Of a stretch of DNA of 36,894 nucleotides, positions 2,516 to 36,894 are shown in pieces. The notes below the pieces were generated by a model. It saw nothing but the letters and a program-made list of their open reading frames with translations. It was not told the DNA's origin and did not search any database. The position numbers and the translations under genes were made by a program. Every line of letters starts with the position of its first letter. Position 1 is the first letter of the stretch. Origin of the DNA: Candidatus Staskawiczbacteria bacterium (GTDB lineage Bacteria > Patescibacteriota > Minisyncoccia > Minisyncoccales > Staskawiczbacteraceae); NCBI GenBank assembly GCA_903923535.1, contig CAIXXY010000060.1:1-36894 (forward strand), in the 5' to 3' direction.

Positions 2516-5014
2516 TTATTCTTCGATTGAAACTTCAATTTTATCGCTATCGTTTACAACAATTTGATTAGCCCGCATAACGTATGAAATATCTTTTAAG
2601 AAAGGTTTTAAGATGTTTTGCTTATCATTAGGACATTTAATTTCTAGCAGAGATATGCTTGCTCCAAATCTTATTTTTTTAATAGTCTTAATTTTTCTAG
2701 ATTCAGATATTAAAAGCAGAGCTAATTTAGCGCCTTCAGCCAGCTCATCTTCAAGAAGTTTATTACCTGTAGGCCACTTCATATTATGGATGCTTCCAGT
2801 TTTCTCATTTCTATAAAAATACCCTTGGCCATTTTTAGATTCAATCGATTCATGTATATTTTCTCCGTCGCTATTTTTTATTATATCAGCATGGTACATT
2901 TCTTCTGTGATGTGAGGGATAAAAGGCGATGCCATTTTGAGAATGTTCAAAAAACTCTGATAGGCAGCATATTGAGCAGAAAGTTTTTCAGCAGATTTTT
3001 CTTTGTCATCAGAATTTATCGATAATCTTCCTTTGGCAATTTCTAAATAATTATCGCAAAAATCCGGCCAAAAGAAATCTTCAAATAATCTTCTGGCTTG
3101 AGAGAATTCATAATTTCTAAATGCTTTTGACATTCCTTCAGCTGTTTTAAGCGATCTCTGCAAAATCCATTTATCAAATGCTTCAAGGTTTTTTTCTTGC
3201 AATTCAATCTTTGTATCAAAATCTTGTAATTTGCCTAAAACAAGTTTGCCTGCGTTATAAATTTTCGTTACCAGCTTTTTCCCTTTTTCAACTTCTTTTT
3301 CATCAAAATATGCATCCCTTCCCAATACTGCTCCGCACATTGAATAACGGATGGCATCTGCAGATTTTGTTTCAATCAATTCTTCAGGGCTTAATTTTCC
3401 TCCGCCTGTTTTTTTGCTTATCTTTTCTCCCTTTCTTAATAAAATATGACCGGATATCATTAAATCTTTCCATGGCACTTCATTATGCCTGTATAGACCC
3501 ATTAATATCGAATAAACTGCCCATGTCCTTATTATATCGTGCGCCTGAGGACGCATGGACATCGGATATAGCTTACCTTTTAACGATTTATTAAGTTGAT
3601 TATTACTATTGATATCTGGCGTTAATGAAGAGGTAAACCAAGTATCCAAAACGCTTTTTTCTGCAATTAATTTTCCAGTTTTACAATTTTCACAATTACT
3701 GTCAATTTTTTTAATTTTCGGATCTATAGGAAAATCATTTTCATCCAGGATTACAATATTTTCACAATTTGAGCAGTTAAAAACAGGAATTGGAATGCCA
3801 TAAAATCTTTCTCTGGAAATACACCAGTCCCATTTTAAACCAGATACCCATTCCTCATATCTTTTTTTCATATAAGAAGGATGCCAGTTTATTTTGTTTC
3901 CAGCCTCCAAAAGATTTTCTTTTGTATCAAGCATTTTTATAAACCATTGGGTTGTCGGCAAAAATTCAATCGGAGTGCCGCATCTTTCATGTATTCCAAC
4001 GCTATGCATGATTTTTTCCTCTTTTTTTACAAAGCCGCCTTCTTTAAGCTTTTCAATAATTATTTTTCTGGCAGCATCTATTGTTTTTCCATTCATTTCC
4101 GGCAGCTCATCTATATTCTGCATTTTTCCATCCTTGTCTAAAATAATTATTTCTGGCAATCCATATGTTTTTGCCCAATATATATCTGTTTCATCTCCAT
4201 AAGTGCAGCACATGACAGCTCCGCTGCCTTTTTCTATTTCAACTTTATCGTCTGGCATAATAGCCACTTCTTTGCCCAAAGGTGTTGTAATTTTTTTACC
4301 TATAAGATGCGTATATCTTGTGTCTTTTGGATTTACAAAAACCGCTACGCATGCAGAAAGCAATTCTGGCCGTGTTGTGGCAATAATCAAATCTTCGCCA
4401 TTTTCCAATTTAAATGCCAAGTCATAAAAAACGCCTTCTTTTTCCTTATCTTCTTTTTCAGCTTGCGCAAATGCTGTATGGCATTCAATGCAATATAAAG
4501 CAGGGGTATTTTTTTTATATATCAACCCTTTTTCATAAAGTTCCTTAAATACTGATTGGGATAACTTTTGTACATCAGAAGAAATAGTAGAATATTCCAG
4601 TTTCCAATCCATGCTGAAACCAGCTGATTTAAAAAGATTTTCATAAAGTTTTTTATATCTGTCTGTAGTATCCAGGCATAATTTAACAAATTCTTCCAAT
4701 TTTACATCCTGTCCTCTTTTTCCTATTTCCTTTTCAACTAATCTTTCAGTAGGCAACCCATTATTATCATATCCTATGGGATATCTTACATTTGCCCCTT
4801 CCATTCTTTTGAATCTAGCGATAACTTCTGCCTGAACATAAGAAAAAATATGCCCTAAATGCAATGCTCCTGAAATAGTAGGGGGAGGCGTATCAATATC
4901 AAAAAGCGGACCTGACTGTTCGGGATTAAATTTATAAATTCCTTCTTTTTCCCAGAAATCCTGCCAATATTTTTCTTTTTCTAAAGGATTATACCTCTCT
5001 TTTTCTTCTGCCAT
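2516..5014 (-). CDS. valS: Valyl-tRNA synthetase
   Basis: An 832-residue class I aminoacyl-tRNA synthetase that charges tRNA-Val. The HIGH motif is HLGH at residues 52-55, preceded by TPPPTISGAL; the KMSKS motif is GEKISKKTGG. The long insertion between them holds the CP1 editing domain (ATTRPELL) and Cys pairs (CIEC, CSNC, CENC) consistent with zinc-binding knuckles. The protein is shorter than the roughly 950-residue E. coli enzyme, with a reduced C-terminal region. It is monocistronic: promoter directly upstream and terminator downstream. The -10 box lies 9 bases before the ATG, so the mRNA may be leaderless. Confidence 0.95.
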   Translation of the reverse strand: MAEEKERYNPLEKEKYWQDFWEKEGIYKFNPEQSGPLFDIDTPPPTISGALHLGHIFSYVQAEVIARFKRMEGANVRYPIGYDNNGLPTERLVEKEIGKRGQDVKLEEFVKLCLDTTDRYKKLYENLFKSAGFSMDWKLEYSTISSDVQKLSQSVFKELYEKGLIYKKNTPALYCIECHTAFAQAEKEDKEKEGVFYDLAFKLENGEDLIIATTRPELLSACVAVFVNPKDTRYTHLIGKKITTPLGKEVAIMPDDKVEIEKGSGAVMCCTYGDETDIYWAKTYGLPEIIILDKDGKMQNIDELPEMNGKTIDAARKIIIEKLKEGGFVKKEEKIMHSVGIHERCGTPIEFLPTTQWFIKMLDTKENLLEAGNKINWHPSYMKKRYEEWVSGLKWDWCISRERFYGIPIPVFNCSNCENIVILDENDFPIDPKIKKIDSNCENCKTGKLIAEKSVLDTWFTSSLTPDINSNNQLNKSLKGKLYPMSMRPQAHDIIRTWAVYSILMGLYRHNEVPWKDLMISGHILLRKGEKISKKTGGGKLSPEELIETKSADAIRYSMCGAVLGRDAYFDEKEVEKGKKLVTKIYNAGKLVLGKLQDFDTKIELQEKNLEAFDKWILQRSLKTAEGMSKAFRNYEFSQARRLFEDFFWPDFCDNYLEIAKGRLSINSDDKEKSAEKLSAQYAAYQSFLNILKMASPFIPHITEEMYHADIIKNSDGENIHESIESKNGQGYFYRNEKTGSIHNMKWPTGNKLLEDELAEGAKLALLLISESRKIKTIKKIRFGASISLLEIKCPNDKQNILKPFLKDISYVMRANQIVVNDSDKIEVSIEE

Positions 5015-20651: not shown

Positions 20652-20801
20652 ATGAAAAATCAAAAAAGAATGCCAAAATCAATCAGGAAATTTATTCGTA
20701 CCCAGAAGGCGCAGATAAGGCGCCAGTTTTTAGATGCAAAAAAACAAGAAGAAGCTATAAAAGAAATGTATAATAAGTTAAATCCTACTAAATTAACCTA
20801 A
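20652..20801 (+). CDS. Very small basic protein (49 residues)
   Basis: ATG 20652 to TAA 20799-20801 encodes 49 residues starting MKNQKRMPKSIRKFIRTQKA and ending NPTKLT. It is rich in Arg and Lys in the first half and Lys/Glu helical in the second, like a small RNA- or ribosome-associated protein, but I cannot name a family. Coding status rests on the strongly basic, non-random composition and a start just after a terminator-like hairpin. Confidence 0.5.
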   Translation: MKNQKRMPKSIRKFIRTQKAQIRRQFLDAKKQEEAIKEMYNKLNPTKLT

Positions 20802-20937
20802 TTGTTCTAATTATCCTAATTGACCTAATCAAATACAAATGCCTAAATGTCTAATATCCAAATATTTTTAGAAATTAGGCATTAAAGATTAGATATTGAT
20901 TAGAATAATTAGAAATTAGAATAATTAGAATAATTTT
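20799..20937. repeat. AT-rich AATTAG repeat upstream of the NIF3-like gene
   Basis: The 137 bases between the small gene and the NIF3-like gene hold repeated TCTAATT/CCTAATT words on the left and AATTAGAATAATTAGAAATT on the right, which can pair with each other. The NIF3-like ATG follows directly. No protein frame is present. Confidence 0.6.
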
Positions 20938-27528: not shown

Positions 27529-27553
27529 AACCCCCCCCTAAAGCGGGGTTTTT
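27529..27553 (+). terminator. Terminator after the HD gene
   Basis: AACCCC and GGGGTT (27545-27550) flank a loop containing an uninterrupted C8 run; GGGGTTTTTG ends the unit. It lies 6 bases after the stop. Confidence 0.75.
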
Positions 27554-33705: not shown

Positions 33706-34058
33706 TGGTGGAAGTGGCGAGATTGAACTCGCGTCTGAAAAGTTTTTGAAAGCAATTCTACAAGTTTAGTTATTTTTGATGTTCGAGCATTAAATAGAAA
33801 AATAACAAAATTTTTAATGCCTTATCTCCTTAATTTCGATAATTTATCAGAGAAGTAAATTATCTATCCTAATGATATAACACCTCAGGTCCATTTATTA
33901 GGAGTCAATGGTTGAGATGCCGCATTAAGCGAAAGCTAATGCTGGTTGTCTATTAAATAAATTAGTAGCAATTATGTTTTTCTTTGGAAGATTAAAGAGC
34001 CCCAAAGAAGCTCAACTTGCCTTACTTAAAAGAACTATTCATCGAAACTCACACTCCC
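33706..34058 (-). ncRNA. ssrA: Transfer-messenger RNA
   Basis: Minus-strand gene of about 353 bases. The 5' GGGAGTG (34058-34052), followed by TGAGTTTCGATG, pairs perfectly (one G-U) with CACTTCC before ACCA at the 3' end. The T-arm is GACGCGAGTTCAATCTCGCC. A tag frame reads GCT ACT AAT TTA TTT AAT AGA CAA (from 33969) and ends CCA GCA TTA GCT TTC GCT TAA (to 33925), giving a tag about ATNLFNRQPALAFA. The tag's end lies in a hairpin GCATTAGC/GCTTAATGC as in known tmRNAs. The resume codon is inferred. The T-loop seems one base short. smpB ends 4 bases upstream. Confidence 0.88.
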
Positions 34059-34617: not shown

Positions 34618-34646
34618 TTGACAATGTTGTTTAGGTATGATATACT
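34618..34646 (+). promoter_or_regulatory. Promoter of the DGR target gene
   Basis: TTGACA (34618-34623), a 17-base spacer and TATACT (34641-34646). The predicted start is near 34653, giving a leader of about 135 bases, the longest before any gene here. Confidence 0.75.
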
Positions 34647-34683
34647 ATAAATATAGCACATTTACATAATTTTACTTGCAAAA

Positions 34684-34736
34684 ACAGTCATAGCCAAAAG
34701 TCCTTTATATTTTAGAGGGTTTCTGGCTATGACTGT
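34684..34736 (+). promoter_or_regulatory. Long hairpin in the leader of the DGR target gene
   Basis: ACAGTCATAGCCA (34684-34696) pairs exactly with TGGCTATGACTGT (34724-34736) around a 27-base loop that contains CCT/AGG. A strong ribosome site AAAGGAGG (34771-34778) follows, 8 bases before the ATG. The stem could control expression or stabilise the mRNA. Confidence 0.6.
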
Positions 34737-34786
34737 CATGTCGGCAGTTTAGGCAAAGGGAAAAAACAAGAAAGGAGGATGACGCC

Positions 34787-35401
34787 ATGGAGAAAACCAT
34801 GATCGCATCCGAAATAACCGATGGACAAATTGACAATGTTTGCGCAAAACTACGGGATGCACTGCGCAAGCATCGTAAGGAAATCACCACAGAAGCCGCA
34901 CAGTTCGCGTTAGGCACGGAGAACATCGGCATGATGATGTTTGCGCCCTTTCGCGAGCAAGCGGAGATGGCAGGCGAGATGATTGTCCGCCGCGTTCGCG
35001 TCAAACGCAACCGTACCCAGCAGGAAATGTTGGACGCGACGGGCCGCGTCCAGTACACTAATTCCGAAGTTGTTGGGCTGATCCCCGGCAAAGGCGAAAG
35101 CGAGAAAGAAGAAGATGTGTATTTCATTCCGCTCAATGGTAAGGACACGAGCGCGAAGGCTGTACAGGACTTACTCGACGAGCACGGATTGAAGCCCGAC
35201 GGATATGCAGTCGCGGCTGTCAATGAAGCCGATCCGGGATTTGCTGACAGCCATCCCAATGCCACTCAGTGGGTGGACGAGAACGGCAACCACTGCTATG
35301 TCACCTTCAGCTGGTGGGGCGGCGGCGAGCGCCGCGTGTTCTGCTATCGCGGCGAGGGTGGCTGGGATGACGACTGGTCTGTGGGCGGCGTCCGCAAGTA
35401 G
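34787..35401 (+). CDS. DGR target (variable) protein
   Basis: A 204-residue protein with no signal peptide or membrane segment and much higher G/C than its neighbours. Residues 1-170 are of a family I cannot name. Residues 172-204, ending WDDDWSVGGVRK, are encoded by the variable repeat (35299-35397). The N-terminal part has no obvious binding domain; the variable residues sit at the extreme C-terminus, as in lectin-fold DGR targets, but the classical fold length is not evident. Diversification would change about 15 codons, including those for S, W, G, R, F, Y and D residues. It has its own promoter, leader hairpin, strong Shine-Dalgarno site and terminator. Confidence 0.85.
   Translation: MEKTMIASEITDGQIDNVCAKLRDALRKHRKEITTEAAQFALGTENIGMMMFAPFREQAEMAGEMIVRRVRVKRNRTQQEMLDATGRVQYTNSEVVGLIPGKGESEKEEDVYFIPLNGKDTSAKAVQDLLDEHGLKPDGYAVAAVNEADPGFADSHPNATQWVDENGNHCYVTFSWWGGGERRVFCYRGEGGWDDDWSVGGVRK
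35299..35397 (+). repeat. DGR variable repeat (VR)
   Basis: The 99-base segment aligns without gaps to the template repeat at 35765-35863 (offset 466). I count 21 differences: 20 at template A (15 to G, 3 to T, 2 to C) and one at C. Of 30 template adenines, 20 are changed. The last 17 bases, GTGGGCGGCGTCCGCAA, are identical and would act as the initiation-of-mutagenic-homing region. Confidence 0.95.
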
Positions 35402-35403
35402 CT

Positions 35404-35418
35404 AAGTCCTCTGGACTT
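35404..35418 (+). promoter_or_regulatory. Hairpin just downstream of VR
   Basis: AAGTCC-TCT-GGACTT starts 7 bases after the VR and 3 bases after the target stop codon. In studied DGRs a short hairpin at this place is needed for efficient retrohoming; the same role is inferred here. Confidence 0.65.
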
Positions 35419-35469
35419 GGAATTTTGGCCTTTTGGTCTTGAATTTCAGCCCTTTGAACTCGTTAATAG

Positions 35470-35519
35470 TGCCCTGTGATAAAATCTATTTCGGTGGATT
35501 GCATTGCAGGGCAATTTTT
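35470..35519 (+). terminator. Terminator of the target gene
   Basis: TGCCCTG (35470-35476) pairs with CAGGGCA (35507-35513), followed by ATTTTTT. The shorter ATTGC/GCAAT stem inside uses the same T run. Confidence 0.55.
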
Positions 35520-35764
35520 TATACAATAAAAATGGAATTAGGTGAATCTTGCGGGAGATCAAGGTTTCCCGCGGCCGAAACCAGTATCCATACATCCAGA
35601 ATATCTGCGACTAAGGTTTCAGATAGCGCGGTGCATGCAGACACTTCAAAAAATGAAGCTACTTGGTATAAGATGCTAACGTATTTTAGATACGGAATTC
35701 GATACAGCCTTGAGATCGCGAAAGCTTCGATGGGCAGTGGCACAGAAGGCGTTTTATACAAAGG

Positions 35765-35863
35765 TGTCACCTTCAACCAGTGGAACGACGGCAAGCGCAA
35801 CGTGAACTGCAATCGCAACGAGAATGACTGGAATAACAACTGGTATGTGGGCGGCGTCCGCAA
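35765..35863 (+). repeat. DGR template repeat (TR)
   Basis: An adenine-rich 99-base sequence with runs of AAC and AAT codons (for example AACCAGTGGAACGACGGC). It is the unmutated partner of the VR; the two match at all non-A positions except one. It lies on the same strand as the reverse transcriptase and 418 bases upstream of it. Confidence 0.95.
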
Positions 35864-35906
35864 CTCTCTTTGTTTCTCTCTCATTTCTTGAGAGAGTTTT
35901 CTTTTT
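35862..35906 (+). terminator. Terminator after the template repeat
   Basis: AACTCTCT (35862-35869) pairs with AGAGAGTT (35891-35898), followed by TTCTTTTTG. It overlaps the end of TR and the 3' end of the convergent avd gene. Confidence 0.6.
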
Positions 35907-36225
35907 GCAATTTACCTCTCCATCCTCCAAGATTTCTGCCAACCTCATTCAGTTTTTCAGAAAGCACGATATATTTTTTATCATCAAAAGACTTTGTTTC
36001 CCAAAGAATCATTAAAAATATTTTCATCGTATCTAATTTTCTGATGGCGAATTTAACAAAAGGTTCTTTCTCATTCGGCTGTAAGAAACTGGCTGTAATT
36101 ATGGCTTCTATGATATCAACAAAAAGCTTGTCAATTTTTTCTCCCAAAGAATATCTGTGATTTTTCGGCATAATTTGGTAATATCCATACCAAAGCAAAT
36201 AAGCAGATTTTGTCTTCTCTAACAC
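35881..36225 (-). CDS. avd: Avd-like DGR accessory protein (four-helix bundle)
   Basis: A 114-residue, helical, basic protein of the Avd / 23S rRNA intervening-sequence protein family. Avd forms a pentameric barrel that binds the reverse transcriptase and template RNA. The family pattern is visible: YLLWYGYYQIMPKNHRYSLG then EKIDKLFVDIIEAI, and a C-terminal half NEVGRNLGGWRGKL. The start is GTG at 36225; the frame stays open upstream (FKILP before it), so an ATT start about 9 bases earlier is also possible. It is on the strand opposite to TR, target and reverse transcriptase, an uncommon orientation. A C10 run lies in its leader. Confidence 0.82.
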   Translation of the reverse strand: MLEKTKSAYLLWYGYYQIMPKNHRYSLGEKIDKLFVDIIEAIITASFLQPNEKEPFVKFAIRKLDTMKIFLMILWETKSFDDKKYIVLSEKLNEVGRNLGGWRGKLQKENSLKK

Positions 36226-36246
36226 TGGCAGAATTTTAAACTGCGT

Positions 36247-36256
36247 GGGGGGGGGG
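36247..36256. repeat. G10 homopolymer between avd and the reverse transcriptase
   Basis: Ten uninterrupted G on the plus strand lie 21 bases before the avd start (minus) and 24 bases before the reverse transcriptase ATG (plus). Such tracts are slippage-prone and here occupy the shared divergent leader. Confidence 0.9.
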
Positions 36257-36280
36257 ATTAGAGGAATAATTATTTTGATT

Positions 36281-36894
36281 ATGAAAATTGTTTTGGTTCA
36301 TAAATTTGAAAATTTAATTAATATTGATAATCTGCTTTCGGCCTGGCAAGAATTTTTGAAAGGAAAAAAGCATAAGAGAGATGTTCAAGAATTTCAGTTT
36401 AGCCTAATGGATAATATATTATCACTGCATTATGATCTTATCAACCATACATACAAGCACGGAGGATACGAATGCTTCAAGATAAACGACCCAAAGCCAA
36501 GAATAATCCATAAAGCCCTTGTTCGCGACAGGCTTTTGCACCACGCAGTCTATCGCATATTATACCCTTTTTTTGATAAAACATTCATTTCAGACTCATT
36601 CTCTTGCAGAAACAGCAAAGGAACGCACAAAGCAATAATCAGATTCAGAGAATTCTCAAACATTGTTTCAAATAACAATACAATAACCTGCTGGATTCTA
36701 AAATGCGACATCAAGAAGTTTTTTCATTCAATTGACCAAAATGTTTTGATAAATATTTTGAAACAACGCATACCTGACAAAAACATTATCAACCTGCTAA
36801 GCGAGATAATTTTCAGCTTTAAACCTAATGGTTTGCCTCTCGGAAATCTGACAAGCCAGCTTTTCTCCAATGTATATATGAATGAGTTTGACCA
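36281..36894 (+). CDS. DGR reverse transcriptase, 3' end outside the window
   Basis: At least 204 residues of a retron/group II-like reverse transcriptase. Recognisable blocks are IIHKALVRDRLLHHAVYRIL, SDSFSCRNSKGTHKA, the first catalytic box LKCDIKKFFHSID (Asp143), and GLPLGNLTSQLFSNVYMNEFD (residues 184-204). The LGNxTSQ form of the last motif is characteristic of DGR reverse transcriptases. The YxDD box lies beyond the edge. The protein would copy TR RNA with errors at adenines and insert the cDNA into VR. It is read from ATG 36281 with no clear Shine-Dalgarno site. Confidence 0.93.
   Translation, partial: MKIVLVHKFENLINIDNLLSAWQEFLKGKKHKRDVQEFQFSLMDNILSLHYDLINHTYKHGGYECFKINDPKPRIIHKALVRDRLLHHAVYRILYPFFDKTFISDSFSCRNSKGTHKAIIRFREFSNIVSNNNTITCWILKCDIKKFFHSIDQNVLINILKQRIPDKNIINLLSEIIFSFKPNGLPLGNLTSQLFSNVYMNEFD

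Follow-up and report, generated by a model that had tools for sequence, protein, structure and literature searches.

An open question about diversity-generating retroelements (DGRs) is how cells stop a self-mutating machine from destroying its own variants. The locus described here, from a member of the genus Staskawiczbacteria (Patescibacteria), raises this question, and a simple, testable and phylum-wide answer would be a slippery repeat placed in an accessory gene that retrohoming requires wherever this was tested. The window, meaning the whole 36,894-nt stretch of DNA that was analysed, is the end of contig C60 in a 755-kb genome of 66 contigs. It probably holds, in our judgement with good confidence, a cellular DGR of the Patescibacteria type with a TR RNA folded at its 5' end, a phase-variable Avd, and an RT and Avd shared with a second module on contig C12. 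The parts of the element that bear on its identity are as follows.

34787-35401, forward strand: DGR target gene, 204 aa, with a GC content of 57% in a window of 35% GC
35299-35397, forward strand: VR, the last 33 target codons, ending at the final codon before the stop
35380-35397, forward strand: IMH-like block of 18 nt, identical in VR and TR at their 3' end, the last mismatch lying at offset 81
35404-35418, forward strand: short inverted repeat AAGTCC-TCT-GGACTT with a 6-bp stem, just past VR and the stop codon
35765-35863, forward strand: TR, placed by its alignment to VR
35881-36301, reverse strand: avd, with a conserved body at 36225-35881 and a proposed start at ATG 36301
36281-36894, forward strand: RT, the first 204 of 325 codons, from profiles and a contig join; the rest is on contig C63

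The two repeats can be aligned without gaps over 99 nt, and the coordinates and counts of the original prediction were reproduced: of the 21 mismatches, 20 are at template adenines, of which TR has 30 (hypergeometric P = 1.3e-12). From TR to VR there are 15 A>G, three A>T, two A>C and one C>T changes, altering 15 of 32 codons in VR and, in all 15, the encoded residue. The same bias extends to 48 related loci, where a template A is the site of 785 of 810 TR/VR mismatches. By analogy with BPP-1, the 18-nt block at the IMH-like position may have the corresponding role. The inverted repeat behind VR occupies the same position as the BPP-1 target hairpin/cruciform (PMC3240598), with a loop that departs from the phage GRNA consensus; stems of at least 5 bp follow VR in 22 of the 48 loci against 3.9 expected.

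Further evidence comes from the two protein partners. The final 77 nt of the window match the end of contig C63 exactly (reverse strand), an identity that is the mark of an assembler k-mer overlap. Extending the RT past position 36894 across this join, as the original prediction had proposed, gives a 325-aa protein from ATG 36281 with the motifs LPLGNLTSQ and YADD, the latter being the YxDD box that had been looked for; RVT_1 matches it at 1.1e-23. For avd, matches were obtained to PF22296 bAvd (4.6e-10, just above the gathering score), NF033474 DivGenRetAVD (2.9e-16, under the cut-off) and phrog_3206 'Avd protein of DGR' (1.6e-15). A reading without any DGR, in which chance or recombining repeats lie beside a group II or defence RT, could draw on the top NCBIfam match of the RT, which is a group II maturase profile, albeit under its cut-off. 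We give it almost no credence in view of the adenine bias, the presence of Avd, the two RT motifs and the nearest phage relatives, whose RTs are about 38% identical and whose own loci carry an A-biased repeat pair in four of the five examined. An adenine-biased TR/VR pair, an RT with YxDD and GxxxSQ, VR at the target 3' end, Avd and an inverted repeat after VR are all present, as expected of a DGR. The joint assignment of target, VR, TR, Avd and RT is upheld, and the element is confirmed as a real DGR of the Patescibacteria type. Neither of the two findings named in the original prediction as fatal to it turned up, since the YxDD box is there and the TR/VR mismatches are concentrated on adenines.

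Its layout was at first described as uncommon, which proved mistaken: the order target(+), TR(+), avd(-), RT(+) is the standard of the clade, shared by relatives within the order and by others across the phylum. Of 247 species in the order, 59 have RT relatives (E<1e-40), and the genome itself has one RT. Unrelated target families adjoin RTs about 70% identical to that of the window, so that the target turns over and the RT persists; labels given to targets automatically proved unreliable. Tandem targets are seen at two loci (L152 and L094), where one TR accompanies two VRs that both differ from it at adenines only. Contig breaks at TR/VR were considered as a sign of variation within populations and set aside, being a weak sign and one expected from the repeats themselves; contigs with an RT end within 1.2 kb upstream in 12 of 45 cases against 2 downstream, and within 1.3 kb in 12 against 3 (P=0.035). 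Two public Patescibacteria assemblies (L074 and L107, target C-terminus) have N runs exactly within VR, which could reflect read disagreement or masking in the collection. Elsewhere in the window, a tmRNA gene (Rfam RF00023) missed by ARAGORN lies at 33706-34058 on the reverse strand, beside smpB.

The target belongs to a family of which at least 40 loci turned up when about 85,000 genomes were searched; all have Patescibacteria titles or are in bacterial bins without a taxon name, and none was found in viral contigs. An RT is nearby at about half of these loci and the remainder are orphans, while the GC content of targets equals or exceeds that of the surroundings in nearly all cases. Sequence-profile searches, Pfam included, returned no family match. 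As to the suggestion that the family may be undescribed, the family has the loci just given, and a Patescibacteria-only DGR clade without recognisable target domains has already been published (PMC8144416). An AlphaFold2 model from 34 homologues has a mean pLDDT of 92.3 and a pTM of 0.79, rising to 94.2 and 0.89 for the VR-bearing part alone (residues 64-204), and VR forms the last three strands of the model. Foldseek searches of the model against PDB and BFVD gave nothing at E<=0.001, so that the absence of a recognised fold, as originally noted, holds at the level of both sequence and predicted structure. The predicted order of elements is beta, two helices and four strands, and could be that of a compact core of the C-type lectins, which runs beta1, alpha1, alpha2, then beta2 to beta5 (PMC6328139). 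Known DGR CLec proteins are themselves very divergent (PMC6328139), and we leave the fold undecided because the solved DGR lectins are only weakly alike. The function of the target would be ligand binding.

Upstream of the target is a further element that recurs with genes of this kind.

34684-34736, forward strand: inverted-repeat hairpin in the target 5' leader, ACAGTCATAGCC...GGCTATGACTGT

A near-identical hairpin stands upstream of a paralogue on contig C57 (L008, 7884-8516, reverse strand; 42% identical to the target, with a near-identical 5' leader), and similar ones precede other target-like genes in relatives, several of them unrelated (L049-L059). The hairpin is possibly a shared regulator of a set of variable proteins. 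The near-identical flanks of the C57 paralogue had prompted the idea of a mobile cassette with conserved ends, which was rejected because the conserved 3' block is the 5' half of the TR RNA; it stands there without TR, avd or RT. The paralogue is read as a DGR relic that lost these three parts, or as an orphan target. A role as remote target of the window TR was ruled out, as 11 of 64 non-A positions differ. Other GC-rich target-like genes of another family, together with the end of another target, are cut at contig ends, and C57 and C58 break at one common sequence.

L184/L058 (contig C58) 1-440: broken target-like gene or target end
L008 1-464: broken target-like gene or target end
L057 end (contig C66): broken target-like gene or target end

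The next question is how the TR transcript is recognised, and here three structures around TR can be considered.

35589-35637, forward strand: 5' stem-loop of the TR RNA, 17 predicted pairs, 15 of them with compensatory changes in 25 sequences
35659-35762, forward strand: three-way-junction RNA directly upstream of TR, 23 pairs, closed by a stem of 12 bp
35876-35906, forward strand: terminator-like hairpin and T-run at the end of the TR transcript, from sequence, overlapping the avd 3' end

Covariation in the junction is extensive. Across 37 sequences, compensatory changes are seen at 20 of the 23 pairs, and 97.6% of cells are paired; double-change cells number 175 against 48 in shuffles (0/500), and the pattern is lost on sliding by 1-3 columns. 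The domain 5' of TR has no match in Rfam, which suggests that it was previously uncatalogued. Searching with a covariance model, R1, located the junction in 45 of 247 genomes when the order was scanned and in 64 of 380 drawn from the phylum as a whole, nearly every time at a DGR: at 58 junction loci outside the training set, avd is present at 53 and RT at 49, and A-biased TR/VR pairs were found at 14 of 18 and 28 of 35 junction loci in two samples. None was found in five phage DGR loci. For the 3' hairpin, the covariation alignment is poor across loci and a per-sequence hairpin test was used for that reason; a hairpin followed by a T-run lies 3' of TR in 44 of 48 loci against 8.3 expected. In BPP-1, the spacer 3' of TR folds and recruits RT-Avd (PMC12875486). 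Because the room 3' of TR is here taken by the terminator-like hairpin, the 5' domain would be the handle for RT and Avd.

The same RNA model has a second site in this genome, C12:3167-3273, and this site marks a second TR/VR module. It comprises a 645-aa target, VR at 2744-2880 and TR at 3268-3404, the two repeats differing at 21 positions, 20 of them at A; it also has the junction and a terminator-like hairpin, with an enolase-like gene behind them. Neither avd nor RT was found there. RT-less modules with mismatches at A only were found in two other genomes that have an RT elsewhere (26/26 in G318 and 21/21 in G427), and a less clean one in a third (19/23 in G227). We infer that the C12 module is served in trans by the RT and Avd of the window, through the shared RNA domain. 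In principle contig C12 might be a contaminant, although one dispersed repeat is common to it and to C57, C58, C60 and C66. Such a repeat, of about 140 nt, partly palindromic and MITE-like, is seen on several contigs of the genome.

L183 4704-4843: copy of the dispersed repeat
Window 20798-20937: copy of the dispersed repeat
L008 1201-1340: copy of the dispersed repeat
L184 15234-15347: copy of the dispersed repeat

Neither the structured RNA nor the second module had been remarked on in the original prediction, nor had the following feature, on which the opening question turns.

36247-36256, forward strand: 10-G tract (10 C on the avd strand) between the avd ATG and the avd body, the proposed phase-variable switch

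The true start of avd is probably ATG 36301 on the reverse strand, overlapping the RT start, and it is this placement that puts the G tract inside avd. With 10 G as assembled, the frame is broken at the tract and the product has 21 aa; with 9, a 139-aa Avd results. The sole other G/C run of at least 7 in the window is 8 C at 27531-27538. Between avd and RT, G-runs of at least 7 occur in 47 of 59 loci, where 0.1 would be expected. Poly-C recurs in 31 held-out loci of the phylum, and another 10 carry (CA)n, (GA)n or (CT)n of up to 15 units at the tract position, where 0.03 would be expected per region; one further locus has a CAAT repeat. No repeat tract was seen in two phage avd genes. One RT subclade (L174-L181) has its G tract very near the RT body, and the RT there may start upstream of the tract and hence be phase variable itself.

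Whether the tract is translated can be judged from reading frames. Ten loci poor in repeats have an avd whose frame is continuous with an ATG lying antisense to the RT N-terminal codons. Of the 47 poly-C loci in the first set, 17 have the upstream ATG in frame, and the count becomes 17 and 15 with one unit fewer or more; among the 31 held-out poly-C loci, 8 have it in frame. When pooled, 25 of 78 poly-C loci are in frame (one third) against 17 of 19 repeat-free loci, the latter a hand tally from two scripts (Fisher P=1e-5), and the tract lengths are a metagenome assembly consensus in which homopolymers can be miscounted. It is the variety of slippery repeats at one place, together with evenly spread frames, that points to translational phase variation of Avd, with 10 G as assembled being the putative OFF state and 9 the ON state, and to switching within the population; the weight of this reading, drawn from sequence, lies in the frame statistics and the variety of repeat types. 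Two other arguments were dropped. A conserved Pro-Pro-Pro in Avd cannot prove translation through the tract, because poly-C reads Pro in every frame, and conservation of the N-terminal peptide before the tract proves nothing alone, since part of the peptide runs antisense to conserved RT codons; the frame test was used in its place.

Two alternatives accept the DGR and differ on the tract. The first, which we consider unlikely, takes it to be a promoter-spacing, transcript-slippage or DNA-structure element with Avd starting downstream. The tract does sit between divergent genes, TTG or GTG starts lie within 20 codons past it in 40 of 47 loci, and a tract that is not translated would likewise leave one third of loci in frame; yet there would then be no reason for the upstream ATG to be in frame at nearly all repeat-free loci, and the use of poly-C, CA, CT or GA according to lineage agrees with slippage rather than with a fixed binding site. 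A start after the tract here (GTG 36225) is possible and would weaken the OFF state. The second alternative, less probable still and in our view very doubtful, is an ordinary DGR with a decayed avd, in which the tract is an assembly error or a real frameshift and the element is dying. The assembled avd is indeed out of frame, and the genome holds the orphan C57 paralogue with its non-A mismatches to TR. Against this, the differences between TR and VR, in the window and on C12 alike, are almost confined to A, from which recent homing follows, the avd body is intact, and the same out-of-frame pattern with an intact body is seen in about two thirds of the 78 loci.

With phase variation of Avd as the preferred reading, the parts can be assembled into a mechanism. 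The TR transcript, folded in its 5' part into a stem-loop and a three-way junction and carrying a terminator-like hairpin 3' of TR, would be copied by RT with Avd; adenines would be misread, and the cDNA would replace VR, so that residues change among the final 33 of a small protein. Translation of Avd would begin at an ATG in head-to-head overlap with the RT start, and the hypermutable repeat right behind this ATG (C10) would make Avd, and hence retrohoming, phase variable, with 9 C being ON and 10 C OFF. Since retrohoming is described as requiring Avd (PMC10053308), the whole element would be turned on or off by the switch, supposing that the window DGR depends on Avd as is known for BPP-1. 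The same RT and Avd would probably serve the C12 module through the shared RNA domain.

A wider proposal can be put forward more tentatively, at a little under an even chance: across the phylum, avd repeats would provide bet-hedged, heritable ON/OFF hypermutation, the 5' RNA would let one RT and Avd serve scattered modules, and the target scaffold would be a fold new to solved structures. If this is true, slippage activates the DGR in a minority of the cells, and turning it off again shields a useful variant from being overwritten. The 5' domain is also a sequence handle for finding DGR elements that lack an RT, and it predicts the set of dispersed genes open to rewriting by a single RT. Should the variable protein lie outside detectable lectin folds, the range of scaffolds known to carry massive variation would grow.

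Several known systems can be compared with this element. DGR clade 2 of Roux et al. 2021 (PMC8144416) is likewise cellular, restricted to Patescibacteria and has targets without recognisable domains, a likeness in host range and target character alone; its main text, as searched, makes no mention of a 5' RNA domain, an avd repeat or RT-less modules. It is these three features that are new beside the known DGR type. For the repeat, novelty is unproven because many subscription papers lie outside the DGR literature searched, which has no report of a repeat in avd. BPP-1 likewise has TR, VR, Avd, RT, adenine mutagenesis and an inverted repeat after VR (PMC3240598). Its order, however, is avd-TR-spacer-RT, with a folded spacer 3' of TR (PMC12875486) and no repeat tract reported in avd, whereas the window element has an antisense avd, a TR ending at a hairpin and a conserved structure 5' of TR, a template-RNA architecture unlike the phage model. 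The incomplete DGRs of Thiohalocapsa PB-PSB1 (PMC10907252) are also RT-less target loci diversified by components encoded elsewhere. Their VRs use the TR of another locus, whereas an RT-less locus of the C12 type keeps its own TR RNA and conserved domain. Contingency genes of Neisseria and Campylobacter (PMC5084427, PMC8355987) likewise carry a homopolymer or dinucleotide repeat in the 5' coding region whose number sets the frame, and avd, read from the proposed start, has what marks an SSR phase-variable gene, a hypermutable simple repeat in the 5' coding region and a frame dependent on repeat number. Unlike in those genes, what would be switched here is a component of a hypermutation machine.
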